Origin: Pedosphaera sp.
GTDB taxonomy: Bacteria; Verrucomicrobiota; Verrucomicrobiia; Limisphaerales; SIBH01
Direction of reading: 5' to 3'
Length of the DNA stretch: 38,267 bases
Assembly (NCBI GenBank): GCA_009695285.1
Contig: SIBH01000005.1
Span: forward strand, 1-38,267
Positions 11,618-29,463 of the stretch are shown piece by piece. The position numbers were made by a program, and so were the translations under genes. The first letter of the stretch is position 1; every line of letters starts with the position of its first letter. Under the pieces are notes generated by a model. It saw only the letters and a program-made list of their open reading frames with translations. It ran no database searches and had not been told where the DNA came from.

Positions 11618-12658
<1,041 letters not shown>

Positions 12659-12750: not shown

Positions 12751-12766
12751 AGCAGGGTGAATGCCA
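12751..12766 (-). promoter_or_regulatory. predicted sigma54 (RpoN) promoter of glnA
   Basis: Minus strand TGGCATTCACCCTGCT. The -24 GG (12765-12764) and the -12 GC (12753-12752) are exactly ten bases apart, and TGGCA and TGCT agree with the consensus TGGCACG-N4-TTGCW. Expected start of transcription is about 12740, giving a leader of about 80 bases to ATG 12658. The same type of site precedes glnK. Confidence 0.75.
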
Positions 12767-13031
12767 CGCCGCAAGAGAATTGCTGGGCCGACGGCAGGAA
12801 CGCGTTCTAGCCCGCTCTGGCCGGTGGTTTTCGGGGGTCACAGTTTTTGTTCCGCCTCGGCCCGGCCGGAAATTTGCCTGTGATTTTTTGTTCAGCCTGC
12901 GCGAATCCGCTCGCCCCGATGTGGAATCGGCCGACGAGCGCCCTGGCCGTCGGCGCACTGGAGAAATTCCAAAAGCATTGAAGCGGCGGGGCGTCCTCCC
13001 CTACCCTGCGAGGCCGTGCGGTGGTTTGCTT
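12767..13031. other. divergent intergenic region between glnA and the kinase-PP2C gene
   Basis: Upstream space for glnA (minus) and for the kinase-PP2C gene (plus). The plus-strand reading frame is open back to 12780, but the translated extension is Arg/Pro-rich and unlike any domain, so it is not taken as coding. No convincing NtrC palindrome or sigma70 promoter was found by eye. GGTGG shortly before ATG 13032 is a weak candidate ribosome site. Confidence 0.4.
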
Positions 13032-14391: not shown

Positions 14392-17300
14392 ATGAACAAA
14401 CTGTTTTTGTCCGTCATCGTCGCGCTGTTGAGTTTTTCGGCCGCCGCCCGGGCCGACTGGCTCGCGTTCATCGATCAGATGCGCGGCCCGGCCACGAGCA
14501 ACCACGTCACCGCGTTAGATCTGGTCGTGGCCGACGGCGCCCGGCTGACCAATGTGCTGACCGGCACCGCGCTGACGGCGGGGTTCAGCGTGGCCCGCGC
14601 CGGGACGGTCAGCTATTCGACCGTCATGAGCGATCCCGACGCCGGCACCCCGGCGCACCAGGCCTTCAACGGCTTTATCGACTTCACCGGCAGTCCGTCC
14701 GGCCAGAACGGGTTCCGCTTGTACAACTCGCTCGGCGCCGTCTGCACGCTGACGTTCACCAATCTTGATCCGGCCCGGCGCTACCACTTCGCCGCCACCT
14801 CGGTGCGCGGCGCGCTTTATCCCATCCGCTGGACCGCGTGCGTGCTCCAGGGCGCGGACGCGTTCATCGAGGCGCACACCTCGGGCTGCATCACCAACGG
14901 CGATCCGCGCATCGCGCCGGGCACGATCACGAACGGCCAGGTCGCCTTCAACACGGGCAGCAACTCGGTGAACGGCGATCTCATCCAGTGGCGGCAAATC
15001 AATCCCGGCGCGGACGGGCGGTTCTCTGTGCAGACGGAGCAGTGGCTCGGGGCCATTCCCGGCGGCACGGCGGGAGACAGTTACTCGTACGGGCTGACCG
15101 CGATCCGAATCGAGGAGATCACCGTGAACAGCCCGCCCACCGTTTTCCTCACCAGCCCCGACAACAATTCCAGCGTCAACGTCACCTCGAACGTCGTCAT
15201 CACCGCCGTGGCCACCGACCCCGGCGGCACCGTCACCAACCTCGCCTTCTACACAAACAACGTCCTCCTCGCGGACGACTCCGCCAGTCCCTACAGCGTG
15301 ACCGTCTCGAACCTGCCCGCCGGGATTCACCTGCTCACCGCCGTGGCCGCCGACAACACCGGTCTGCTCGCCACCTCCGCGCCGGTGCGTCTCGTGGTCC
15401 TGCCGCCCGGCAACCTCGTCGGCGCGGCCGGCTATACGAATGCCTTCAGCACCCTGCCCGCCGCCACCGCGTGGTCCACGATCACCAACGGCGGCAGCGC
15501 CGGCACGATCACCACCCCGGCCGGCCTCGACAGCACGGTGCAAACGAATCTCGCCGCCGCCATTCGCGGCGGCCTGGTTTCCGGCTCCGGAAATCCCGCC
15601 GCCCAGGGCGTCGCCGCCGTCTGGAGCAGTTCGGGTTTTCTCCAGACCAGCCCGCTCACCATCGGCTATGTCAGTCTCCTAGGCACCTTCGTGAACAACT
15701 CCGGCGCCGACGCGGCGGCGGTCCGGGTCAGCTACAGCTTCTTCACCAATGCCATCGTCGAAACCCTGCCCACGCAGGGCGTCTATTACAGCCTCACCGG
15801 CGCGACCGGCAGTTGGACCCGCCTGCCCGCGCTGTCCTTTCAGCCGGGCGGCACGCCGGACGCGGTCGTCACGCTCTCGTCGCCCTGGGCCTACGGCAGT
15901 CGGCTTTACCTGCTCTGGGCCGACGCGAACTTCTCGAACACCGACATGATCTGCCAGCTCGACAACTTCTCGCTCACCCTGGTCAACTCCCTCGCCTGCT
16001 CGATCACCAATCCGCCCGGCGGCGCTTCCTTCGAGCAGCCGGCGAACATCCCGCTCGGCGCAGCCGCCGGCGGCCTGGCCGCGATCACCAACGTCAGTTT
16101 CCTCACCAACGGCTTCACGGTCGGCCAGGTCATCGCCAGTCCCTACACGCTCGTCTGGAGCAATGCCCCCCTCGGCGGTCATGCGCTCACCGCCATCGCC
16201 ACCGACCTCACGGGCGCGCGCGCCACTTCCGCGGTCGTCAACATCACGGTCACGCCGCCGGTCACGAACACCGTTCCACCCGTCCTCGCCACCGTTGTTC
16301 CGACGCGCGGCGTCGTCCTCGCCAGCCTCACTTCCATCCAAATCATCTTCAGTAAGCCCGTCTCCAACGTGGATGCCGCCGACCTGCTCGTGAACGGCGT
16401 GCCCGCCACCGGCCTCAGCGGGGGCGGATCGAACTACACCTTCACCTTCCCCCAGCCGCCGATCGGCGCGGTCGCCATCACCTGGCCGACCGGCCACGGC
16501 ATCCTCGACCGCGGCAATCCTCCCCTGCCCTTCAATGAAACCGCCACCAACGCCACATGGACTTATTCGCTGGTGGACAGCACGCCGCCCGTCGTCGTCG
16601 CCCAGTTGCCCGCCACCGGCGCCACGCTTTCGAATCTCACGTCCCTTCAAGTCACCTTCAGCGAGAGCATGGCGAACGTGGACGCCGCCGACCTCCTGGT
16701 GAACGGCGCGCCCGCCGTCGGACTCGGCGGCGGCGGATCGAGCTACACGTTCGCCTTCTCACCGCCCGCGCCCGGCCTGGTCAACATCACTTGGGCCGGC
16801 GGACACGGCCTCACCGACGTTTCCGGCAATCCCTTCAACAGCGTCGGCGCAGGCGCGACGTGGAGCTACTCGCTGCAGTCGCCGGTCGTCACGCTCATCG
16901 CCAGCAACAGCGTCTGGCGTTACTTCAAGGGACTCAGCGAAGCCTCCTCGCCCGCCACCGCCTGGCGCGCCACCGCCTTCAACGCCGCCGCGTGGCCCAC
17001 TGGGCCGGCAGCCTTCTTCTACGGCGCCGACCCTTACACCGGCACCGTGCTCAACGACATGGTCAACAATTACACGACCGTCTTCCTGCGCCAGCAGTTC
17101 ATCGTCAACTCGCCCTCCGCCCTCTCGAACCTGGTGGTGAACGTGCAGGTCGATGACGGCGCAATCGTGTGGATCAACAACACCGAAGTCGTCCGGCTCC
17201 GAGTCGGGGCCGGCGAGATTCCGTTCAATGAACTTGCCAGCCAGAACGCTCCCGAGCAATTCGCCGGCGGCGCGGTTTGGTCAACATTCAACCTCGCCAA

Positions 17301-20300
17301 TCCGCAGGCCTTCCTCGTTGCCGGCACCAACACCATCGCCATCCAGGCGCTCAACGTCTCCCTCGCCGGCAGCAGCGATTTCGGCATCGACGCCTTCGTC
17401 ACCGCCGAACTCTCCGACCCTGGCACGCTGCCACCCACCATTCTCACCCTGAATCCCCCGGCCGGGACGGTCTTCGCGCTCACCAATATCACCGTCACCT
17501 TCAGCAAGCCCGTCGCGAACGTGGATGCCGCCGACCTGCTCGTGAACGGCGTGCCCGCCACCGGCCGGGCCGGCGGCGGCGCGAGCCACACCTTCAGCTT
17601 CGCGTCGCCCGCCTACGGCAACGTCGCCCTCACCTGGACTGCGGGCCACGGCATCACCGACACCAACGCCGCGCCGCTCGCCTTCAACGCCACCGCGCCC
17701 GGCGCGACCTGGCAATACACGCTCCTCAACCCGAGCACGCCCGCGGTCAGTTCGCAGACGCCGCCCGCCAGCAGCACGATCAACGCGCTCACGCAGATTC
17801 AAGTCACCTTCAGCGAACCCGTGACGAACGTGAACGCCGCCGACCTCCTCATCAACGGCGTGCCCGCCGGCGGCCTCGCCGGCACGAACGCGAATTACAA
17901 CTTCACCTTCCCGCCGCCCGCCTTCGGCAACGTCGCTGTCACCTGGGCCGTCAGCCACGGCATCACCGATCTCGAAATTCCAGCCAACGCCTTCGCCTCA
18001 TCGGCCGCCGGCTCGACCTGGTCCTACACGCTCGCGGATCAGATGCCGCCCGGCGTCGCCGCGCAGAATCCGCCCGCGGGCGCGAGTGTGACCAACCTTA
18101 CTTCGCTCTCCGTGACCTTCAGCGAACTCGTGACCGGGGTGAACGCCGCCGACTTCCTCATCAACGGCGTGGCCGCGACGGGACTGGGCGGCAGCGGCTC
18201 GAATTACACCTTCACCTTCGCCCAGCCCAACACCTCCGTGCTCAACGTCGGCTGGGCCGCTGGCCACGGCATCGCCGACGCCGCCGCGAATCCTTTCAAT
18301 GCCGGTGGCGTCGGCGCGACCTGGCAATACTTCACGCCAGACAATCTCCCGCCCGCCGTCAGCACCATCAGCCCGCCGCCCGGCGCGACCGTGCGCGACC
18401 TCACCCAGGTGCAGGTGACCTTCAACGAGCCGGTCCTCGGCGTGAACGCCGCCGACCTGCTCATCAACAGTGTCCCGGCCACGAACGTGACCGGCTCGGC
18501 GGCCGGCCCATACACCTTCCTCTTCAGCCAACCCGTGACCGGCGCGGTGGAAATCATCTGGGCCGCCGCCCCGGGGATCACGGACCTCGCCTTGCCGGGG
18601 AACGCCTTCGAGGGCGGCGCGTGGAGCTACGTGCTGAATCCCGACGCCGTCTTCGCGGCCAAGGTGCTGATCAGCGAAATCATGTACCTGCCGCCGACCA
18701 AGGGCACGAATGACGAATGGATCGAGTTGCGGAACATCGACACGGTGCCGGTGAACCTGAACGGCTGGCGCTTCAGCAAGGGCGTGGTTTTCACCTTCCC
18801 GAAAGTGACCATTCCGGCGGGCGGCCATCTCGTCATCGCGGCCAGCACCAATTCGTTCCGCGCCAAATATCCGGCCGTGACGAATTACGTCGGGCCGTGG
18901 CTCGGCAGCCTGGCTAACAACGGCGAGAGCATCCGGCTGGAAACCGCGCTGGGCGAGATCGTGAACGAGGTGAGCTTCGCCTCGGAAGGTGACTGGGCGG
19001 TGCGCCAGCGCGGACTGCCCGACGGCGGCTTCCGCGGCTGGGTCTGGGCGAGCGCGGCCGACGGCTTCGGGCCGACGCTGGAGATGATCAACCCGGCCCT
19101 GCCCAACCAGCATGGGCAGAACTGGCGCGTGAGCACAGCGCCTAACGGCACGCCCGGCGCGGCCAATTCCATCGCCAGCACGAATGTCCCGCCGCTCGTT
19201 CTCGAGGTGGCGCACTTCCCCGTGGTGCCGCGCTCGACTAATCCGGTGACGGTCACGGCCAAGATTCTGGACGAGCGCACCAATGGACTGGCGGTCACGC
19301 TTTTCTATCGCAACGCCTCCACCGTCACTCCGCCCGCCTTCTCCGAGTTGGCGATGTTCGACGACGGCGCGCACAACGACGGGGTGAGCAACGACCAAGT
19401 CTGGGCCGCGACCATCCCGGTGCAGGCGGACAAGACGATCCTCGAGTTCTACGTGCGGGCCGTGGACGCGGACAACAACACCAATCACTGGCCGGCCGTG
19501 GCGTACGCCGCGCCGGACCAGGGCGGCGCGCGGCTCACTCCCGAGACCAGCGCCAACGCGGTCTTCCAAGTGGACGACACGGTCTATGTTTTCTCGCAGC
19601 CGCAGTACCGGTTGACCATGACGGAGCAGGAGCGGCAGGAGCGTTTTGTCAGCACCGGCAACGCGGAGTTCAACGGCACATTCATCTCCAGCGACGGCAC
19701 GGGCATCGAGGCCCGCTACAACGCCAGCTTTCGCGAGCGCGGCAACGGTTCGCGCGGCGCGGAGCCGGCCAATCAGCGGGTCAACATCCCGACGGACCGC
19801 CTCTGGAAGGGCCAGCGCGAGTTCAACCTCAACACGCGTTACACCCACGCCCAATACGCCGCCTACCTCCTTTCGCGGAAAGCCGGGATGGACGCGGAAT
19901 GGGCGCAGATCGTGCGCGTTTACATCAACGGCACCAACAGCGCGAGCAGCGGCCTGCCGCAGTTTGGTTGCTACATCCATGTCGAGGCGCCGGGCAGTGA
20001 AATGGCCGCCGCGCACTGGCCCCTCGACAGTGACGGCAATGTCTATCGCATCTCCAGCGGCGGTCATGCGGCGACCCTGGCCGCGCACCAGCCGCCCACG
20101 GCCGCGAACTACATCAACCTCGGCTACGTCAAGGCCTCCAATTCCGCCGAGAACGACTACTCGGACCTGACCAACCTGACCTACGTGTTGAACGTGGTGC
20201 CCAACGCGACCTACGAGGCGGAGGTGCGTGCCATCGTCAACGTGGACGCCTGGCTCACCTACTTCGCCGTCAACTCCCTCCTCGAAAACAGCGAGACTTC

Positions 20301-23300
20301 CATCGGCAGCGGCGTCGGGGACGACTCCGGCCTCTATCATGCCTTCGGGGAAAACAAGTGGTACTTCATCGCGCATGACCTGGACACGGTGCTGGGCCAA
20401 GGCGACTCGGCCGGCAACACCAGCGAGAACATTTTCATCGCGGCCAATCTCGCCTCGATCAACCGCTTCCTGCACTGGCCGGCCTTCGAGGCGGCGTACT
20501 ACGCCAAGCTCCGGCAGCTTTGCACGACGGTGTTCTCCCCCGGCGAAGTGGCGAAGACGCTGGACGAAGGACTGGGTTCCTTCACGGCCACGGGAAACAT
20601 TCAAGCCATGAAGCAGTTCAACACCAACCGCGTCGCCTACATTCTCTCGCAACTGCCGCCAGACCCGAACGCGCTCTACGTGGCGGCCACGAACCTCGGC
20701 GGCGGCCTCGGTGCGAACACCGTGCTCGCCTCGTCCAACGTGAATTACTTCATCACCAGCAGCCTCACCATCTCGAACGGGGCCACACTCACCATCCAGC
20801 CCGGCGTCAACGTGCGGCTCGCCGCCGGTGCGAACCTCACCGTGGCCAGCGGCGGACGGCTCCTCGCCGAAGGCACGGCCGCGCAGCCCATCCTCTTCAC
20901 CCGGAGCGGCGGCGCCAACTGGGGCCGCATCATCATCAACGGCGCCGTCGGCTCGCCCGAAAGCCGCCTCGCCTACGCGCGCCTCGAGTTCAACGCCACG
21001 AGCACGACCACCCCGGCCATCGAGGTCGCAGCGGGGACGGCGGTCCTGGACCACCTGACTTTCGGCAACACCGCGTCGCCCTACATCCGCGTCGATGGCG
21101 CGTCCTTCGTGATCAGTCATTGCGAGTTTCCGACGACGACCGCGTCCTTCGAGCCGGTGCATGGCACGGGCGGCATCAAGACGGGCGGGCGCGGCATTTT
21201 TTATCGCAACTGGTTTGGCCGGCCTAACGGTAACAACGACGTGGTGGACTTCACCGGCGGCAACCGCCCCGGCTCGCCCATCGTGCAGTTCCTCGACAAT
21301 GTTTTCACGGGCAGCGACGACGACCTCCTCGACCTCGACGGCACCGACGCCTGGGTCGAGGGCAACATTTTCCTGCACGCGCATCGCAACGGCTCGCCCA
21401 ATTCCGCGAGCGCCGTCAGCGGCGGCAACGACAGCGGAAACACTTCTGAGATCACGATCATCGGCAACATCTTCTACGACGTGGACCAGGCGGCGACGGC
21501 CAAGCAGGGAAATTTCTACACCTTCCTGAACAACACCGTGGTGCATCAGAGCGGCTCGGGTTTCGGCGACGCGGGCGTGACGGCGGTGCTGAACTTCGCC
21601 GACGATGATATCGCACCGGCGCGGGGCATGTTGGTCGAAGGCAACATTCTTTACGACCTCGAGCGGCTCACGCGCCATGTGACCAACGGCACGACCGTGG
21701 CCAGCAACACCACGTTCATCGGCAACTTGATGCCGCTCGCGTGGGCCGGCCCCGGCGCCTCGAACTCGACCAACCCGCCGGTCTTCCAGTATGTGCCCGC
21801 GCTGGCCGAGACGACCAACTTCACCAACTGGGCCTCGGCGCAGATTCTCCGCCAGTGGCTCAGTCTCCAGCCCGGCTCGCCCGGCCTCGGCGACGGCCCG
21901 AACGGCTGCGATCAGGGCGTCATTCCCATCGGAGCCACCGTGGCCGTGGGCGCGGGCGCGACGACGAATGACGCGACGTTCACCGTGGGCCTCCACCGCA
22001 CCGGCGGCGTCATCACCGCCTCGGGCGGATTCCCGAACGGCTCGGGCTACACGCATTACAGGTGGCGGCTCGACGGCGGGGCGTGGAGCGCGGAGACGGC
22101 GGCGGGCACGGTACTGAACCTTCCCGGTTTCCGCAGCGGCCCGCACCGGCTCGACCTCAGCGGCCGGCGCGACACCGGCACCTGGCAGGACGACGCGGAC
22201 TCCGGCGAACTGGCGCTGGTCACCTCGGTGTTCAACGGAAGCGCGCAGCAGGTGCGGATCAACGAGGTGCTGGCCAGCAACGGCTCGTCCATTCCACACG
22301 AGGGCACCCACCCGGACGTGATCGAACTCCACAACCCCGGCGGCGCGGCGGTGGACATTTCGGGACTGCGCCTCACGGACAACTTCAGCAACCCGGACCG
22401 GTTCAGCTTCCCCACCGGGACGATGATTCCGGCGGGCGGTTACCTCCTGGTCTATGCGAACAACGAGGACGGCACCTCGGGCCTCCACACCGGTTTCACG
22501 TTGAACAAGGACGGGCAGTCGCTCCATCTCTACGACGCGGTGGCGCGCGGCGGGGTGCTGCTCGACACGGTGACGTTCGGGTTGCAGTTGACAGATTTTT
22601 CGGTGGGCCGCTTCGGGACGAACTGGGCGCTCTGCACGCCCACGGCGGGCGGGCCGAATCTGCCGGCGGCGACGGGGCCGGCGCAGGGGTTGGTGATCAA
22701 TGAAATCCTCGCCGCGGAGCTGACGGCGTTCCCGGATGATTTTGTCGAGCTGTTCAATCCAGGTGCGTGGCCGGTGGCGCTGGCGGGTTTGTTCTTCACG
22801 GATAATCCGGCGCACTGGCCGGATCGCAGCCCGGTGCCAGCGCTGACCTACCTGGGCGCGGGCGGCTATCTCGCGTTTCGCGCGGATGGCCGCACCAACC
22901 TGGGCGCGGACCATCTGAACTTCTCCCTCGAAGCGGAGCGCGGCCTAGTCGCGCTGTTGCACCCGGATTATTCGGTAATTGATTGCGTCCTCTACGGCCC
23001 GCAACGGACGGACGTCTCGCAGGGCCGGGTAGTGAACAATGTTTACGACAACAACTTCTTCACCACGCCGACGCCGGGCGCGCCGAATCCGGGAATCATC
23101 TCGACGAACTCCGGCGTGGTGCTGAACGAAATTCTCGCCGCCAACAGCACCATCACCGAACTGGACGGAAGCACGCCGGACTGGATCGAGCTCTACAACC
23201 TGGGCGCGACCAACTTTGGCCTTGGCGACTACAGCCTGTCGGATGATTCGCTGCTGCCGCACAAGTATGTCTTCGCGCCGGGCACCATCATCGCGGGCCA

Positions 23301-25389
23301 CAGCTACCTGCGGCTGCGCTGTGACGGTTCGCTGCCGCCTTCGTCCACGAATACCGGGTTCAACCTCAAGGCGGAGGGCGGGAGCGTTTACCTGTTCGAC
23401 CGCCCAGTCGGCGGCGGCGCGCTGCTCAACGCGGTGACGTATGGCTTGCAGGCGGTGGACTTCTCGATCAGCCGCGTACCCAACGGAACCGGCGTCTGGG
23501 CGCTGACCTTGCCGACACCAGGCGGCGCGAGCCTGCTCGCGGCGACGGCGAACACCGCCTTGGTGAAGGTGAACGAGTGGATGGCCAATCCGGACGCAGG
23601 CGAAGATTGGTTCGAGCTGTGGAATCCCAACAACCAACCGGTGGCCGTCGGCGGCTATTTCACGACGGATGATTTGAACAACCGCACCAAGTCGCCCATC
23701 CCTGCGCTCTCCTTTCTCGGCGCGAGCACGAACGGCTACCAGCGTTTCTGGGCGGACAGCCTGCCGGCCAGCGGCGCCAACCACGCGAGCTTCAAGTTGA
23801 ACAACGGCCCGGCAGGCGAGTCGGTCGGATTCGCGAACCCGTCCGGCACCCTGGTTGATTCCATATCTTACGTGGCGCCGGCGGCGGGCGTGTCCGAGGG
23901 ACGCTTCCCGGATGGCAGCGCGACCATCGCGCTCTTCCCCGGCACCGGCTCGCCGGGCGACGCCAATTACCTGCTCCTCACCAGCGTCGTCATCAACGAG
24001 GCGCTGTCGCACACCGACCCGCCGCTGGAGGACGCCATCGAATTGCGCAACCTGACGGCGGCGCCGGTGGACATCAGCCACTGGTGGTTGAGCGATGCGA
24101 AAAACTCCCTGCGGAAATACCGGATCACGAACGGCGTGACCATTCCGCCCCACGGCTACGTGGTCTTCTACGAGCACCAGTTCAACAGCGACCCGTCGAA
24201 CAACGTGCGGGCCTTCTCGCTCAACTCGGCGAAGGACGACGACATCTTCCTCTCGACCGGCGGCACGAACGGCAACCTGACCGGCTACCGCACCACCGTG
24301 GATTTCGGCGCGGGGGCCAACGGCGTCTCCTTCGGCCGCCACGTCACCAGCGACCAGCGGCAGGAATTCGTGGCCCTGAGCACGCGCTCCTTCGGCCAGG
24401 ATGATCCCGGCACGCTGGCCGAATTCCGCACCGGCACCGGCCTGGCGAATCCCTACCCGAAAGTCGGCCCGGTCGTCATCTCGCGCATCATGTATCACCC
24501 GCCCGACGTCGGCACGAACGACAACACGCTCGACGAATACCTCGAGTTGAAAAACATCACCGGCGCGACCGTGCCGCTCTTCGATCCGGCGGCGGCCACC
24601 AACACCTGGCGTTTGCGCGACGCCGTGGACTTCAACTTCCCGCCGGGCGTGTCGCTCCCCGCCGGCGGCCAGCTCGTGCTGGTCAGCTTTGATCCGGTCA
24701 ACAATCCCGGCCAGCTCGCCGCCTTCCGCGGCCTTTACGACCTCGCCACCGGCGTGCCCGTCCACGGCCCCTACAACGGCAAGCTCGCCAACAACGACGA
24801 CCGGGTGGAACTCTCCCGGCCCGACAGCCCGAACCTGGGCGACGTGCCCTACCTCCTCGTGGACCGCGCGCATTACCGCGACCTGCCGCCCTGGCCATCC
24901 GCGGCGGACGGCACGGGCCTGGCCCTCCAGCGCGTCAGCCTCACTGGCTTTGGCAACGACCCGACCAACTGGCTCGCGGTGGCGGCCACCTTTGGCGGCG
25001 TGGTGGACACCGACGGCGACGGCCTGCCCAACGCCTGGGAACTCGCCTACAACCTGAACCCGAACAGCGCCCTCGACGCGAACCTCGACGGCGACGGCGA
25101 CGGGTTGACGAACTTGCAGGAATACTTCGCCGGCACCAGCCCGCTCGATCCGTCGAGCACGCTCCGCGTCCAGGCGGCCTCCACCGGCCTGGCCGGCGCC
25201 ACCAACGCCGTGCTTCACTTCGAGGGCGTGGCTGGGAAATCCTACACGATCCAGTTCACCCCCGCGCTGCCCGGCGGTTGGTCGAACCTCGCCAGCACCG
25301 GCCCGCTCCCCGCGTCCGGCCCGAGGTGGTTCACGAACCAGTTGCCGCCCGGCACGCCGCAGCGGTTCTACCGCGTCCTCACGCCGTAG
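14392..25389 (+). CDS. giant secreted lamin-tail / CotH kinase / beta-helix protein
   Basis: A 3665-residue protein with a Sec signal (MNKLFLSVIVALLSFSAAARA). Approximate order: N-terminal beta-sandwich (20-245); Ig-like (247-340); jelly-roll-like (345-535); Ig-like (537-628); Ig-like Big_5/SbsA-type repeats 1-2 (629-830); galactose-binding-like (832-1013) with VDDGAIVWINN; repeats 3-6 (1014-1418); lamin-tail domain 1 (1425-1590); Ig-like (1600-1720); CotH kinase (1728-2093) with FRERGNGSR, REFNLNTRY, WLTYFAVNSLLEN and AHDLDTVLGQGD; right-handed parallel beta-helix (2094-2490); lamin-tail domains 2-7 starting near 2621, 2767, 2909, 3057, 3198 and 3361; a DTDGDGLPNAWE / DGDGDGLTNLQE calcium-type repeat pair (3538-3590); and a C-terminal beta domain ending FYRVLTP. 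No membrane anchor, LPXTG or PEP-CTERM was seen. Probably a surface or secreted adhesin-like protein. The start has no Shine-Dalgarno sequence. Confidence 0.93.
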   Translation: MNKLFLSVIVALLSFSAAARADWLAFIDQMRGPATSNHVTALDLVVADGARLTNVLTGTALTAGFSVARAGTVSYSTVMSDPDAGTPAHQAFNGFIDFTGSPSGQNGFRLYNSLGAVCTLTFTNLDPARRYHFAATSVRGALYPIRWTACVLQGADAFIEAHTSGCITNGDPRIAPGTITNGQVAFNTGSNSVNGDLIQWRQINPGADGRFSVQTEQWLGAIPGGTAGDSYSYGLTAIRIEEITVNSPPTVFLTSPDNNSSVNVTSNVVITAVATDPGGTVTNLAFYTNNVLLADDSASPYSVTVSNLPAGIHLLTAVAADNTGLLATSAPVRLVVLPPGNLVGAAGYTNAFSTLPAATAWSTITNGGSAGTITTPAGLDSTVQTNLAAAIRGGLVSGSGNPAAQGVAAVWSSSGFLQTSPLTIGYVSLLGTFVNNSGADAAAVRVSYSFFTNAIVETLPTQGVYYSLTGATGSWTRLPALSFQPGGTPDAVVTLSSPWAYGSRLYLLWADANFSNTDMICQLDNFSLTLVNSLACSITNPPGGASFEQPANIPLGAAAGGLAAITNVSFLTNGFTVGQVIASPYTLVWSNAPLGGHALTAIATDLTGARATSAVVNITVTPPVTNTVPPVLATVVPTRGVVLASLTSIQIIFSKPVSNVDAADLLVNGVPATGLSGGGSNYTFTFPQPPIGAVAITWPTGHGILDRGNPPLPFNETATNATWTYSLVDSTPPVVVAQLPATGATLSNLTSLQVTFSESMANVDAADLLVNGAPAVGLGGGGSSYTFAFSPPAPGLVNITWAGGHGLTDVSGNPFNSVGAGATWSYSLQSPVVTLIASNSVWRYFKGLSEASSPATAWRATAFNAAAWPTGPAAFFYGADPYTGTVLNDMVNNYTTVFLRQQFIVNSPSALSNLVVNVQVDDGAIVWINNTEVVRLRVGAGEIPFNELASQNAPEQFAGGAVWSTFNLANPQAFLVAGTNTIAIQALNVSLAGSSDFGIDAFVTAELSDPGTLPPTILTLNPPAGTVFALTNITVTFSKPVANVDAADLLVNGVPATGRAGGGASHTFSFASPAYGNVALTWTAGHGITDTNAAPLAFNATAPGATWQYTLLNPSTPAVSSQTPPASSTINALTQIQVTFSEPVTNVNAADLLINGVPAGGLAGTNANYNFTFPPPAFGNVAVTWAVSHGITDLEIPANAFASSAAGSTWSYTLADQMPPGVAAQNPPAGASVTNLTSLSVTFSELVTGVNAADFLINGVAATGLGGSGSNYTFTFAQPNTSVLNVGWAAGHGIADAAANPFNAGGVGATWQYFTPDNLPPAVSTISPPPGATVRDLTQVQVTFNEPVLGVNAADLLINSVPATNVTGSAAGPYTFLFSQPVTGAVEIIWAAAPGITDLALPGNAFEGGAWSYVLNPDAVFAAKVLISEIMYLPPTKGTNDEWIELRNIDTVPVNLNGWRFSKGVVFTFPKVTIPAGGHLVIAASTNSFRAKYPAVTNYVGPWLGSLANNGESIRLETALGEIVNEVSFASEGDWAVRQRGLPDGGFRGWVWASAADGFGPTLEMINPALPNQHGQNWRVSTAPNGTPGAANSIASTNVPPLVLEVAHFPVVPRSTNPVTVTAKILDERTNGLAVTLFYRNASTVTPPAFSELAMFDDGAHNDGVSNDQVWAATIPVQADKTILEFYVRAVDADNNTNHWPAVAYAAPDQGGARLTPETSANAVFQVDDTVYVFSQPQYRLTMTEQERQERFVSTGNAEFNGTFISSDGTGIEARYNASFRERGNGSRGAEPANQRVNIPTDRLWKGQREFNLNTRYTHAQYAAYLLSRKAGMDAEWAQIVRVYINGTNSASSGLPQFGCYIHVEAPGSEMAAAHWPLDSDGNVYRISSGGHAATLAAHQPPTAANYINLGYVKASNSAENDYSDLTNLTYVLNVVPNATYEAEVRAIVNVDAWLTYFAVNSLLENSETSIGSGVGDDSGLYHAFGENKWYFIAHDLDTVLGQGDSAGNTSENIFIAANLASINRFLHWPAFEAAYYAKLRQLCTTVFSPGEVAKTLDEGLGSFTATGNIQAMKQFNTNRVAYILSQLPPDPNALYVAATNLGGGLGANTVLASSNVNYFITSSLTISNGATLTIQPGVNVRLAAGANLTVASGGRLLAEGTAAQPILFTRSGGANWGRIIINGAVGSPESRLAYARLEFNATSTTTPAIEVAAGTAVLDHLTFGNTASPYIRVDGASFVISHCEFPTTTASFEPVHGTGGIKTGGRGIFYRNWFGRPNGNNDVVDFTGGNRPGSPIVQFLDNVFTGSDDDLLDLDGTDAWVEGNIFLHAHRNGSPNSASAVSGGNDSGNTSEITIIGNIFYDVDQAATAKQGNFYTFLNNTVVHQSGSGFGDAGVTAVLNFADDDIAPARGMLVEGNILYDLERLTRHVTNGTTVASNTTFIGNLMPLAWAGPGASNSTNPPVFQYVPALAETTNFTNWASAQILRQWLSLQPGSPGLGDGPNGCDQGVIPIGATVAVGAGATTNDATFTVGLHRTGGVITASGGFPNGSGYTHYRWRLDGGAWSAETAAGTVLNLPGFRSGPHRLDLSGRRDTGTWQDDADSGELALVTSVFNGSAQQVRINEVLASNGSSIPHEGTHPDVIELHNPGGAAVDISGLRLTDNFSNPDRFSFPTGTMIPAGGYLLVYANNEDGTSGLHTGFTLNKDGQSLHLYDAVARGGVLLDTVTFGLQLTDFSVGRFGTNWALCTPTAGGPNLPAATGPAQGLVINEILAAELTAFPDDFVELFNPGAWPVALAGLFFTDNPAHWPDRSPVPALTYLGAGGYLAFRADGRTNLGADHLNFSLEAERGLVALLHPDYSVIDCVLYGPQRTDVSQGRVVNNVYDNNFFTTPTPGAPNPGIISTNSGVVLNEILAANSTITELDGSTPDWIELYNLGATNFGLGDYSLSDDSLLPHKYVFAPGTIIAGHSYLRLRCDGSLPPSSTNTGFNLKAEGGSVYLFDRPVGGGALLNAVTYGLQAVDFSISRVPNGTGVWALTLPTPGGASLLAATANTALVKVNEWMANPDAGEDWFELWNPNNQPVAVGGYFTTDDLNNRTKSPIPALSFLGASTNGYQRFWADSLPASGANHASFKLNNGPAGESVGFANPSGTLVDSISYVAPAAGVSEGRFPDGSATIALFPGTGSPGDANYLLLTSVVINEALSHTDPPLEDAIELRNLTAAPVDISHWWLSDAKNSLRKYRITNGVTIPPHGYVVFYEHQFNSDPSNNVRAFSLNSAKDDDIFLSTGGTNGNLTGYRTTVDFGAGANGVSFGRHVTSDQRQEFVALSTRSFGQDDPGTLAEFRTGTGLANPYPKVGPVVISRIMYHPPDVGTNDNTLDEYLELKNITGATVPLFDPAAATNTWRLRDAVDFNFPPGVSLPAGGQLVLVSFDPVNNPGQLAAFRGLYDLATGVPVHGPYNGKLANNDDRVELSRPDSPNLGDVPYLLVDRAHYRDLPPWPSAADGTGLALQRVSLTGFGNDPTNWLAVAATFGGVVDTDGDGLPNAWELAYNLNPNSALDANLDGDGDGLTNLQEYFAGTSPLDPSSTLRVQAASTGLAGATNAVLHFEGVAGKSYTIQFTPALPGGWSNLASTGPLPASGPRWFTNQLPPGTPQRFYRVLTP
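16366..16414 (+). repeat. 49-bp exact direct repeat, copy 1
   Basis: Starts at AACGTGGATGCC and ends at CACCGGCC. It is identical over 49 bases to 17518-17566 and encodes the NVDAADLLVNGVPATG core of Ig-like repeats 1 and 3. Confidence 0.9.
17518..17566 (+). repeat. 49-bp exact direct repeat, copy 2
   Basis: Identical to 16366-16414, displaced by 1152 bases. The flanking sequence diverges at once on both sides. Confidence 0.9.
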
Positions 25390-25708: not shown

Positions 25709-27196
25709 TTAACCGTGGTAGCCTTCTTCGCCGTGTTCGGCCACGTCTAGACCAGTGGTCTCGACTTCCTCGCTGACCCGCAGACCAGTGACGGCCTTCA
25801 CGATGTAGGCGATGACGGCCGTGCCCACGACGGCCAGCACTAGGGTGATGCCGATGGCCTTCACCTGCTCCATCCACAGGCCGTTGCCGACCAGTTGGAA
25901 GAGTCCGTTGGCTTTGGCGTAGGTGTTGGCGTCGGTGAGGTTGGAGTTCACGCTGCTCGTGGCCAGGAAGCCCGTCATCAGCGCGCCGAGGGTTCCGCCG
26001 ACGGCATGGACGCCGAAGGTGTCGAGCGCGTCGTCATAGCCGAACCACGCCTTGAGCTTGAGCACGGCGAAGAACGGAATGATGCCCGCCGCCACGCCGA
26101 TGATCATCGCCCCCGTGGCGTCCACGAAACCGGCCGCCGGGGTGATCACCACCAGGCCGGCGACCGCGCCGGAGCAGAAACCGAGGATGCTGGGCTTGCC
26201 ACGGAAGATGTATTCCGCCATGGCCCACACGAAGGCCGCCACCGCCGCCGCCAGCGTGGTCGTCATGAAGGCGTTCGCCGCCACGCCGTCCGCCGCCACT
26301 GCGCTGCCCGCGTTGAAGCCGTACCAGCCGACCCACAACATGCCGGTGCCGATCATGCACATCACCATGCTGTGCGGCTGCATCGATTCCTTGCCGAAGC
26401 CCAGGCGCTTGCCGAGGATGATGCAGAGGATCAAGGCCGACCAACCCGAGGACATGTGGACCACCGTGCCGCCCGCGAAATCAATCGCCTTGATCTTCGC
26501 GTCACCATTCCAGACGCCGTTCATCAGGCCGTCCACGCCCCACACCATGTGCGCGAGCGGGAAATAAACCACGAACATCCAGAGCGTGACGAAGAGCAGG
26601 ATGGCCGAGAACTTCATGCGCTCGGCAATCGCGCCAATGATCAGCGCGGGCGTGATGATCGCGAACATCATCTGATACATCGCGAAGACGTTCTGCGAGA
26701 CCCATCCCGCGTAGTCCGTGTTGGGCATGGAGTCCACGCCCTTGAGGAACGCAAATTTCAGGCTGCCCAGATAGGGACTGCCGCTGGCAAAGACTAGGCT
26801 GTAGCCCACGAGATACCAGAGAATCGTCACCAGGCCGGCGATGCCGAGGCATTGCGCGAGCACGGAGAGGATGTTTTTCTTGCGCACTAGGCCGCCGTAG
26901 AACAGCGCCAGGCCGGGCAGGGTCATGAACAGCACCAGCGCGGCGCAGATCATCATGAAGCCGTTGTGGCCGGGGCCGGGGCCCGCGATCTTGGACGGCG
27001 CATTGGTGTTGCCACCGCGCGCGCCGTTGTTCATGTAGGCTTCGAGGTCTTCGATGCGCTCACGGTCGGACCGATCCGGAGGCGCGGCCGGGGCCGCCGG
27101 GGCGGCGGGAGCGGCCGGCGCGTCAGCGGCGCGGACGGTCAAGACACCCGCGACCAGCACGGCCAGCAGGGAGAGGGAGAGGAATAGTTTTTTCAT
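25709..27196 (-). CDS. amt: ammonium transporter Amt
   Basis: Inner-membrane trimeric ammonium channel feeding glutamine synthetase. The 495-residue protein begins with a signal peptide (MKKLFLSLSLLAVLVAGVLTVRA), a PAAP-repeat linker and a short acidic helix. The 11-helix Amt core follows, starting FMMICAALVLFMTLPGLALFYGG. Family residues are present: the pore-His segment TVVHMSSGWSAL and the second conserved His in FGVHAVGGTLGAL; MKFSAILLFVTLW and GWYGFNAGSA also match. The C-terminal tail (GLRVSEEVETTGLDVAEHGEEGYHG) matches the conserved cytoplasmic tail involved in PII gating. ATG 27196 is preferred over an in-frame TTG at 27208 because it opens a normal signal peptide. It lies 37 bases after glnK in the same transcript. 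Confidence 0.97.
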   Translation of the reverse strand: MKKLFLSLSLLAVLVAGVLTVRAADAPAAPAAPAAPAAPPDRSDRERIEDLEAYMNNGARGGNTNAPSKIAGPGPGHNGFMMICAALVLFMTLPGLALFYGGLVRKKNILSVLAQCLGIAGLVTILWYLVGYSLVFASGSPYLGSLKFAFLKGVDSMPNTDYAGWVSQNVFAMYQMMFAIITPALIIGAIAERMKFSAILLFVTLWMFVVYFPLAHMVWGVDGLMNGVWNGDAKIKAIDFAGGTVVHMSSGWSALILCIILGKRLGFGKESMQPHSMVMCMIGTGMLWVGWYGFNAGSAVAADGVAANAFMTTTLAAAVAAFVWAMAEYIFRGKPSILGFCSGAVAGLVVITPAAGFVDATGAMIIGVAAGIIPFFAVLKLKAWFGYDDALDTFGVHAVGGTLGALMTGFLATSSVNSNLTDANTYAKANGLFQLVGNGLWMEQVKAIGITLVLAVVGTAVIAYIVKAVTGLRVSEEVETTGLDVAEHGEEGYHG

Positions 27197-27233
27197 TTTT
27201 TGGTTCAATTAAGGTTTGAGTGGTTGCGGTGGG

Positions 27234-27578
<345 letters not shown>

Positions 27579-27714
27579 TTACGGTTGGTTAACTGCGGTT
27601 ACGGAACGGGCTTCTCGAACAACGAAAAGTCCCCACTGCGGACGGAATGCAAAGTGGCTGCGACCGGCGGCCGCATGATGATTGTGACAATAACGTTTCA
27701 ACGAATCGGCTTTT

Positions 27715-27731
27715 AGCAACACCCTTGCCAT
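27715..27731 (-). promoter_or_regulatory. predicted sigma54 (RpoN) promoter of glnK-amt
   Basis: Minus strand ATGGCAAGGGTGTTGCT. GG (27729-27728) and GC (27717-27716) are exactly ten bases apart, and TGGCA-G and TTGCT match the consensus TGGCACG-N4-TTGCW closely. Transcription would start near 27704, leaving a leader of about 130 bases before ATG 27572. Confidence 0.85.
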
Positions 27732-27984
27732 GCTTTTATATTTTTCTGCGATGCGGGTGAAACTGTTGATTTCAGGGACGATTGCGCAGGTATGAATTTT
27801 TTGGTGGCGGGAGGTGTGTCTGTTGCATTTTGACCGCACCGGTTCTATTTAGCCATGACGACGTTCACAAATCGCCATTTGATCGTGGAGAATGGCCAGA
27901 GGCTGAAGTATGAACGCAGCACGCCTGAAGCCGAGCCAGCCGGCCGGGTGCGGCAAACGACCCGCTGGGTGCGAGGAATTGAAC
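27732..27984. other. intergenic region upstream of the glnK promoter
   Basis: Noncoding space of about 250 bases between the end of the Sm-like/LamG gene and the glnK promoter, the expected place for an activator (NtrC-type) enhancer. By eye I see no clear palindrome of the TGCAC..GTGCA kind. A 58-codon plus-strand ORF at 27855-28031 overlaps the neighbouring gene antisense and is not supported. No T-tract terminator for the upstream minus-strand operon was seen. Confidence 0.4.
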
Positions 27985-29463
27985 CTACTTTTCGAATTCG
28001 AGCCCGCCCCCGTTTTCAAGCGGGTCGATGAGATCCTGCTCGGGCTTCTGCTTGTCTAGGTTGAACTGGATGGAGGAGAAGGCGGCCGGTGAGAACCTGG
28101 CCTTGCCGAAATTCAAGCTGCTGCCGGTCACCTGCTGGTCATCCCATCGCTCCAGTTGGAAGGTGACGCTGCCACGATCGCCGAAAGACACTCTCACATC
28201 ATTCGCACCGGACGCCGCTTTCTCAGCCTTCTCGCCCGCCAGGTCAATCTGATCAATGCGGTCCAGCGGCACGCTCAACGGGGCGAACGCCGTCTCGAAA
28301 TTCATCTTGCCGTCCTTGATGGATTTGAGCGTGCCGGAAATTTTGTCGTTGTTCACCAACCGCACCAGGTCGTCCTTGCTCTTGGCGGTCTTGCCGGTGC
28401 TCTCCTCAAACTTGCCATCCCAGGTGGTCACGCGAATGTTGCTCACCCGGACAAATCCCTGCCCTTGCTGGTTAAAAAGCAGGCCAGTGCCGCTGCCCGC
28501 AAAGTCCCCGCGGTCGGTCCACTGCTTGATGAGCGCGCCGTCCATCAGCAGTGCAATCGTTTTCTGCTCCTTGTTCACGCGGAGGGAAAAATGCGCCTTC
28601 GTCTTCTGGTTCAAGGACGGGACTTCCGCCTGCCCAAAACTGCCGGAATCTCCGGTGCGGCTCATGCGCTGCAAGTTCAGCGAGGTGTAATTCATCGAGA
28701 GCAGATAGCAGTTGCCGGCGTAACCATCGAGAGTGTCGGTATAGAAGGCGAGGTTCAACTGGAGGTAGCCGCGCCAGCTCATGTCAAATTCGATGTTCGA
28801 CATCGCCGGCAGTTTCACATCGCGGCCGACTGATCCCTGGCCCACGCTGGTAAATCCGCCATTGCTGAACTTCCACGATCCGCCCTCGCGACCGGGTCGC
28901 ATGGCGCGAAATCCTCCTCCGCCGGTGCCTTTGATTGTCCAGCCTTCCGGACCGGTCGGGCCTTCAAACACGCTGGAGAGCCGCGACAGGCCCGGCGACA
29001 GCGACTGCACCATTTTTCGCGGCAGGGTTAACGTGCCGGCGTACCAGGTTTCAAGAATGAGTTTGTCGTCATCCAGCATGACCAGTTCTCCCACCAGTTC
29101 GTCGCCGTTGGTCAGGCGCGCGGCGCAGGTCTGGCGCGGCGCGGCATTGGTGGATTTCGGCCTGTCCAGCTTGATCCGGCCGATGCCGGCAGGATTCAAC
29201 TCCATCACCTGCTTGACCGAGGGATGCTGCCAGCGCGCCCCATTTTTCGAGTCGAGCGAGATGAATGTGCCGTGAAGAACATCGCCGTTGAGCAGTTCGA
29301 GCGTATCACCGCGTGCCGCCTCAGGGTTGCTCGCGGGCGGTGGGACGTCGATGCCGGGCGCGTCCGGGGTTTTGCCCGGCCCGTCCTTGAGGATGACGAT
29401 TTCCGCGCAGGCGAAACCGGCGAGAGCCACGGCCAGGCCAGGGAGAAGAATGATTTTTTTCAT
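27985..29463 (-). CDS. secreted protein with Sm-like barrels flanking a LamG-like domain
   Basis: A 492-residue protein with a Sec signal (MKKIILLPGLAVALAGFACA). Two short beta-barrel-like repeats come first (about 52-98, DTLELLNGDVLHGTFISL; and 113-157, ARLTNGDELVGELVML..LTLPRKMVQSL). A concanavalin/LamG-like beta domain follows (about 160-345), with a typical WKFSNGG..VGQGSVGRDVKLP edge and a SLRVNKEQKTIALLMDG strand. Then come two more repeats (about 358-405, DLVRLVNNDKISGTLKSI..VPLDRIDQIDL; and 420-470). The repeat pattern, hydrophobic-NGD-x-hydrophobic-x-G-x-hydrophobic and then a L-x-hydrophobic-P-x-x-x-I strand, resembles the Sm/SH3-like barrel. No enzyme motif is seen. It is the last gene of the BatA cluster, 26 bases after the prenyltransferase-like gene. 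Confidence 0.82.
   Translation of the reverse strand: MKKIILLPGLAVALAGFACAEIVILKDGPGKTPDAPGIDVPPPASNPEAARGDTLELLNGDVLHGTFISLDSKNGARWQHPSVKQVMELNPAGIGRIKLDRPKSTNAAPRQTCAARLTNGDELVGELVMLDDDKLILETWYAGTLTLPRKMVQSLSPGLSRLSSVFEGPTGPEGWTIKGTGGGGFRAMRPGREGGSWKFSNGGFTSVGQGSVGRDVKLPAMSNIEFDMSWRGYLQLNLAFYTDTLDGYAGNCYLLSMNYTSLNLQRMSRTGDSGSFGQAEVPSLNQKTKAHFSLRVNKEQKTIALLMDGALIKQWTDRGDFAGSGTGLLFNQQGQGFVRVSNIRVTTWDGKFEESTGKTAKSKDDLVRLVNNDKISGTLKSIKDGKMNFETAFAPLSVPLDRIDQIDLAGEKAEKAASGANDVRVSFGDRGSVTFQLERWDDQQVTGSSLNFGKARFSPAAFSSIQFNLDKQKPEQDLIDPLENGGGLEFEK

Follow-up and report, generated by a model that had tools for sequence, protein, structure and literature searches.

Nitrogen control has been well studied in Proteobacteria, and Verrucomicrobia, abundant in soil and freshwater, are known mostly from assembled genomes. 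Promoters read by sigma54 have the consensus TGGCACG-N4-TTGCW, with transcription usually starting 12 nt after the GC, and the NifA upstream sequence is TGT-N10-ACA. For glnK-amtB of E. coli, the accessible text of one report describes the RpoN holoenzyme and NtrC as both binding upstream and gives the NtrC box as the 17-bp TGCACCAnnnTGGTGCA (PMC8743547). The available portion of a Caulobacter study names glnBA and glnK-amt as direct targets of an NtrC that is without the GAFTGA loop, is reported at sigma70 promoters and has a motif unlike that of E. coli (PMC10274813). Within the Verrucomicrobia, excerpts on the methanotroph SolV list four ntrC genes and, in N2-fixing cells, a three- to fourfold increase of amtB with a threefold decrease of glnK; these excerpts define neither a promoter nor an enhancer (PMC3404531). 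An account of promoter-level nitrogen control in Verrucomicrobia was not found in the searchable literature.

We examined a verrucomicrobial window (the whole analysed stretch of DNA, 38,267 nt, equal to contig C93) from an assembly of 2.15 Mb that is 57% complete. Its source genome is alone in its family, and the nearest genomes compared share only the order. The window carries glnK-amt and glnII (Table 1), the latter about 13 kb downstream of amt, past a reading frame of 3665 residues on the opposite strand (14392-25389, plus) whose repeats look like those of a large secreted protein. The two sets of genes were also near each other on one contig in several relatives (e.g. G007:C14, G049:C2, G005:C6). 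The relative's GlnII (L221) to which the window's glnII was matched had NF041605 as its top NCBIfam match at 365.8 bits, under the cut-off of 500. A tRNA-like sequence near 27970 was also considered, and a tRNA search found none.

Table 1. Positions of the genes and predicted regulatory features in the window, in ascending order.
Feature	Position	Strand	Sequence	Remarks
glnII, glutamine synthetase, GlnII type	11618..12658	minus		88% identity to L221 GlnII
Predicted sigma54 promoter of glnII	12751..12766	minus	TGGCATTCACCCTGCT	Pattern [TC]GGCA-N8-GCT
Predicted enhancer of glnII	12876..12897	minus	GGCTGAACAAAAAATCACAGGC	Centre -146, 10.1 bits, null 95% 9.0
amt, ammonium transporter	25709..27196	minus		TIGR00836 and PF00909 matches
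glnK, P-II protein	27234..27572	minus		Pfam PF00543 match; Tyr51 present
Predicted 5' leader of glnK	27573..27704	minus		132 nt, no Shine-Dalgarno, no unusual fold
Predicted transcription start	27704	minus		Placed 12 nt past GC, usual sigma54 spacing
Sigma54 (-24/-12) promoter of glnK-amt	27715..27730	minus	TGGCAAGGGTGTTGCT	Best site in 68/71 homologous regions
Predicted enhancer, copy 2	27818..27839	minus	GTGCGGTCAAAATGCAACAGAC	Centre -124, 13.0 bits
Predicted enhancer, copy 1	27837..27858	minus	TCATGGCTAAATAGAACCGGTG	Centre -143, 10.3 bits, weaker copy

Sigma54 element and leader of glnK-amt

Read on the minus strand, positions 27731-27715 are ATGGCAAGGGTGTTGCT, an A followed by the promoter sequence of Table 1, with GG at 27729-27728 and GC at 27717-27716 spaced by ten bases. 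The single departure from consensus is the sixth base, A in place of C, and this base was variable in relatives too (T in 40, C in 15, G in 7 and A in 6 of 68). The exact form TGGCA-N6-TTGCT was observed three times in the 2.15-Mb assembly (once for the control pattern), one copy being the glnK site, while an exact search for TGGCAC-N4-TTGC did no better than its control pattern. Taken by itself, the window would allow the GG-N10-GC pair to be a chance match and glnK to be transcribed from a sigma70-type promoter. Chance would give about two one-mismatch copies of the sigma54 pattern per 38 kb, and sequences with at most one mismatch to TGGCA-N6-TTGCT were found at two places against a chance mean of 1.99, these two preceding glnK and glnII; two loose sigma70-like matches also lie in 27100-28100. 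Both of the latter are on the plus strand, however, pointing away from glnK, and the sigma54 site is kept in 68 of 71 homologous regions. We consider a chance match very improbable, and it is this conservation across homologous regions that sets the glnK site apart from chance, since the count within the window is itself at chance level.

The comparison drew on glnK homologues from 90 loci, one from each of 30 genomes and 60 from further stretches, which gave 94 usable glnK starts (none from L085 and two each from five loci). Seventy-one of these starts have amt within 260 nt, and 23 do not. Within 450 nt upstream, TGGCA-N8-GC was the best-scoring site for 68 of the 71 glnK-amt genes, all from one verrucomicrobial order, and the stricter TGGCA-N8-GCW was present in 67; the opposite strand had it in 2 of 71, and 200 shuffles averaged 1.03 (maximum 5). 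The site was absent from three glnK-amt regions (L072, the second gene of L077, and L090). It was also observed before 8 of the 23 starts that have no amt within 260 nt; some of the others belong to amt-first operons, and the site pair can precede amt (G019, locus L109). The first-pass annotation had called a near-consensus sigma54 promoter at 27715-27731 and had proposed conservation of GG-N10-GC in relatives as its check; both GG and GC were kept in 69 of the 71 glnK-amt upstream regions, and the matching sigma factor gene, rpoN, is present in the source genome (G000:C56, 192.7 bits) and was found in 107 of the 116 genomes searched. One relative's rpoN (G065:C123:2510-2985, minus) is in two pieces with a stop, either an assembly frameshift or a broken gene. 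A genuine sigma54 switch for the ammonium-uptake genes, common to the relatives, almost certainly lies at the marked site.

With the glnK ATG at 27572 and the predicted start at 27704, the leader would be 132 nt long with no visible Shine-Dalgarno sequence, close to the 130 bases given in the annotation. A leader of this kind could act as a riboswitch or regulate glnK through some other RNA mechanism, and among 60 relatives' leaders of at least 50 nt the mean fold z-score was -1.05, with 15 of the 60 below -2, so that some of these leaders carry hairpins. The window's own leader folds slightly worse than its shuffles (z = +0.5), predicted lengths span 27-229 nt (median 101.5, 68 loci), an Rfam scan of the window gave no match, and a search for shared sequence among relatives' leaders found none. 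Shine-Dalgarno-like tetramers were likewise rare, preceding glnK in 5 of 68 cases against a shuffled expectation of 8.4, and the 20 bases preceding these glnK starts are A- and C-rich. The available part of one survey counts some Verrucomicrobia among organisms in which the Shine-Dalgarno sequence is scarce (PMC10783764). Because the sequence is rare in relatives too, its absence appears general for these glnK genes and not special to this one. A conserved, structured leader, as would mark a riboswitch or leader RNA, was not found in this comparison; we regard RNA-based regulation here as highly unlikely, and the suggestion that the leader leaves room for a post-transcriptional element did not hold up.

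Upstream palindrome and the genes behind it

Upstream of the promoter, the spaced triplet CTG-N12-CAG was observed in 22 of 75 regions where 2.7 were expected (z 11.7), compared to best z values of 4.1-5.5 for any dyad in shuffled sequence, and the 8-mer TGGTCAAA or its complement was present in 21 of the 75 (0.8 expected). A matrix built from these dyads describes an AT-centred palindrome, TGGTCAAA...CCA, on a fixed TG-N12-CA frame, with near-invariant TG and CA separated by 12 bases and an AT-rich centre. In five-fold held-out scoring of the 74 regions that had 200 nt or more upstream (a partial GlnII, L263, was dropped), 67 scored above the 95% level of the null and 54 above the 99% level, the null being shuffled sequence and the loci sharing ancestry. 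The held-out test leaks its seed because the matrix was seeded from dyads of the same loci, and we imposed its symmetry ourselves. Of the 67 best palindromes, 61 were placed between -160 and -115, most of them 121-154 nt ahead of the predicted start, with positions clustering near -124, -134, -143 and -152. The strongest period of these 61 sites was 9.6 bp, and none of 2000 null draws was as strong, a significance that shared ancestry inflates.

In the window, copy 2 had a held-out score of 12.5 against a null 99% level of 11.9, and the 19-bp spacing between the two glnK palindromes recurs in several relatives. Activator sites had been forecast in 27732-27984, and the two conserved copies at 27818-27858 fall within this interval as the predicted footprint of an activator. 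Alignment with relatives, also suggested in the annotation, was borne out in part, yielding conserved enhancer palindromes but no shared leader sequence. Judged from its pattern across genomes, the palindrome seems to be an apparently new docking site for an activator; no work on it was found in the searchable, mostly non-subscription literature on verrucomicrobial sigma54, NtrC or enhancers.

The arrangement of enhancer and promoter also precedes glnII in the window, which argues for a small nitrogen regulon. Among the 27 GlnII starts with enough sequence, [TC]GGCA-N8-GCT was found within 160 nt of 22, the enhancer exceeding the null 95% level in 15 of those 22, and five starts were without the site (L240, L253, L259, L260, L261). 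We also searched 320 genomes of the order with a gene-blind pattern, TGGTCAAA followed 90-120 nt on by TGGCA-N8-GCT, and counted 93 places in 80 genomes versus about 29 for the reversed control pattern. Fifty loci were examined, 30 from the first 30 genomes with a match (one each) and 20 picked for a complete palindrome. When the palindrome was complete, a glnK, amt or glnII start lay within 500 nt of the pair in 32 of 33 cases (20 of them picked as complete), compared to a nitrogen gene within that distance in 2 of 17 cases when it was incomplete; among the 30 unselected loci the counts were 13 of 13 and 2 of 17. One complete match (L221) precedes a GlnII glutamine synthetase gene. In the order search a single complete pair (L222) had no nitrogen gene behind it, the frame there being one of 206 aa.

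A search of the class (384 genomes) placed a complete pair before amt in three genomes of one family in another order (L302-L304), and two complete pairs outside the order (L288 and L289) had no nitrogen gene nearby. In Chthoniobacter flavus, also of another order (L151), we observed TGGCACGGGCGTTGCA with a 13.5-bit palindrome at -121. Three genomes (G273-G275; L225, L226, L227) show a different gene order, in which glnK is followed by more distant amt matches and then by a second glnK 2.5-2.9 kb on; this arrangement is likewise preceded by enhancer and promoter.

A repressor or nucleoid-protein site would be another reading of the palindrome. Binding of an activator to it is a prediction, and a structural factor would also suit so strict a position. 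The palindrome nevertheless lies some 100-130 bp upstream of the sigma54 site, where an enhancer would be, is helically phased and often tandem, and complete pairs mark almost only nitrogen genes (32/33); we find a repressor or nucleoid-protein site improbable and favour the enhancer. Going a step further, we think it reasonably probable that an activator with its own DNA specificity (TGGTCAAA...CCA, TG-N12-CA, 9.6-bp steps, often tandem 19 bp apart), used instead of the known NtrC box, governs a minimal sigma54 regulon (glnK, amt and glnII) across the order and, beyond it, in one or more other families of the class.

Candidate activators

The source genome contains three full-size NtrC-type activators, each with a receiver, an AAA+ domain and a Fis-type helix-turn-helix (HTH_8), and GAFTGA is kept in the activators of this genome. 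Two of them, on C102 and C111, each adjoin a histidine kinase. The third is split across the ends of contigs C51 and C2 and has no adjoining kinase; its two pieces (L042, L043) contain an identical stretch. When ntrB was sought beside six genes of the C51/C2 type, no listed same-strand frame read as a kinase by eye. NtrC was the best NCBIfam match of the N-terminal half of the C51/C2 protein, and TIGR01818 gave 357 bits over 297 aa against the better NtrC-like half, the cut-off of 558.6 applying to a whole protein and this gene being split. Among the three, conservation is also highest for the C51/C2 type, with 77-85% identity over its N-terminal part in five genomes. These two properties make the orphan NtrC-like C51/C2 protein our first guess for the activator, a choice we hold by a slight preference.

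Presence and absence single out no activator because genomes without either type keep the enhancer and are unfinished. Of 116 genomes, 88 had the C51/C2-type protein (E up to 1e-100) and 105 the C102 type (E up to 1e-150). The enhancer was kept in genomes without the C51/C2 type (e.g. G013, G033) and in genomes without the C102 type (e.g. G076, G102), as seen at loci L012, L031, L019 and L060. Small genomes, G007 among them, likewise have all three types. Because the assembly is 57% complete, it may lack the true activator. Among the PF00158 and glnK matches listed for 15 genomes, no pair was within 10 kb. Self-regulation was likewise sought, and no clear enhancer with a sigma54 site was seen before the activator genes, save one palindrome (15.2 bits) upstream of the G056 copy. 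GlnD was above its cut-off in 34 of 38 genomes, the source genome having fragments only, and on these matches a P-II cascade is plausible in these genomes.

Proposed switch and comparison with known systems

We propose, with high confidence, that glnK-amt is transcribed from an enhancer-dependent sigma54 promoter at which an NtrC-type activator acts from two palindromes, and that the operon is co-switched with glnII. Promoter and enhancers are shown by sequence comparison, and nitrogen control and looping would follow from the target genes and established sigma54 biology. RpoN-RNA polymerase would sit closed at 27715-27730, and the palindromes at 27818-27858, located on the same face of the helix some 100 bp upstream, would be occupied by dimers of an NtrC-type AAA+ activator. 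Under nitrogen shortage the bound activator would loop to the polymerase and open it, and joint induction of uptake (amt), signalling (glnK) and assimilation (glnII) would follow. From the conserved enhancer motif the regulon can be predicted in uncultured members, with three proteins as candidates for binding it, and the 9.6-bp phasing across dozens of natural promoters offers a natural test of activator position against helical face.

The locus shares its operon content with glnK-amtB of E. coli. Unlike the 17-bp E. coli box in the accessible text, TGCACCAnnnTGGTGCA, the palindrome here is 16-18 bp long and of the form TGGTCAAA...; tried as the enhancer, the E. coli box was found in 7 of 74 regions at up to four mismatches (about 3.8 expected), hardly enriched, so that these regions did not show the E. 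coli-type box expected of an NtrC regulon. The 16-bp outer frame TG-N12-CA is shared with the NifA site, but the third base of the palindrome is G at 0.42 and T at 0.30 and its centre is strongly AT-rich; the exact NifA frame, TGT-N10-ACA, was also hardly enriched as an enhancer (5/74, 3.2 expected). With activators that keep GAFTGA and a sigma54-type promoter, the system here differs from that of Caulobacter as described in the available portion of that study, and SolV belongs to a different verrucomicrobial lineage from the source of the window. Both kinds of target of an NtrC regulon, glnK-amt and glutamine synthetase, lie behind enhancer-promoter pairs. The target set is that of NtrC, and by its sequence the promoter would work in the manner of NtrC and sigma54, the activator itself being only an NtrC-like candidate.
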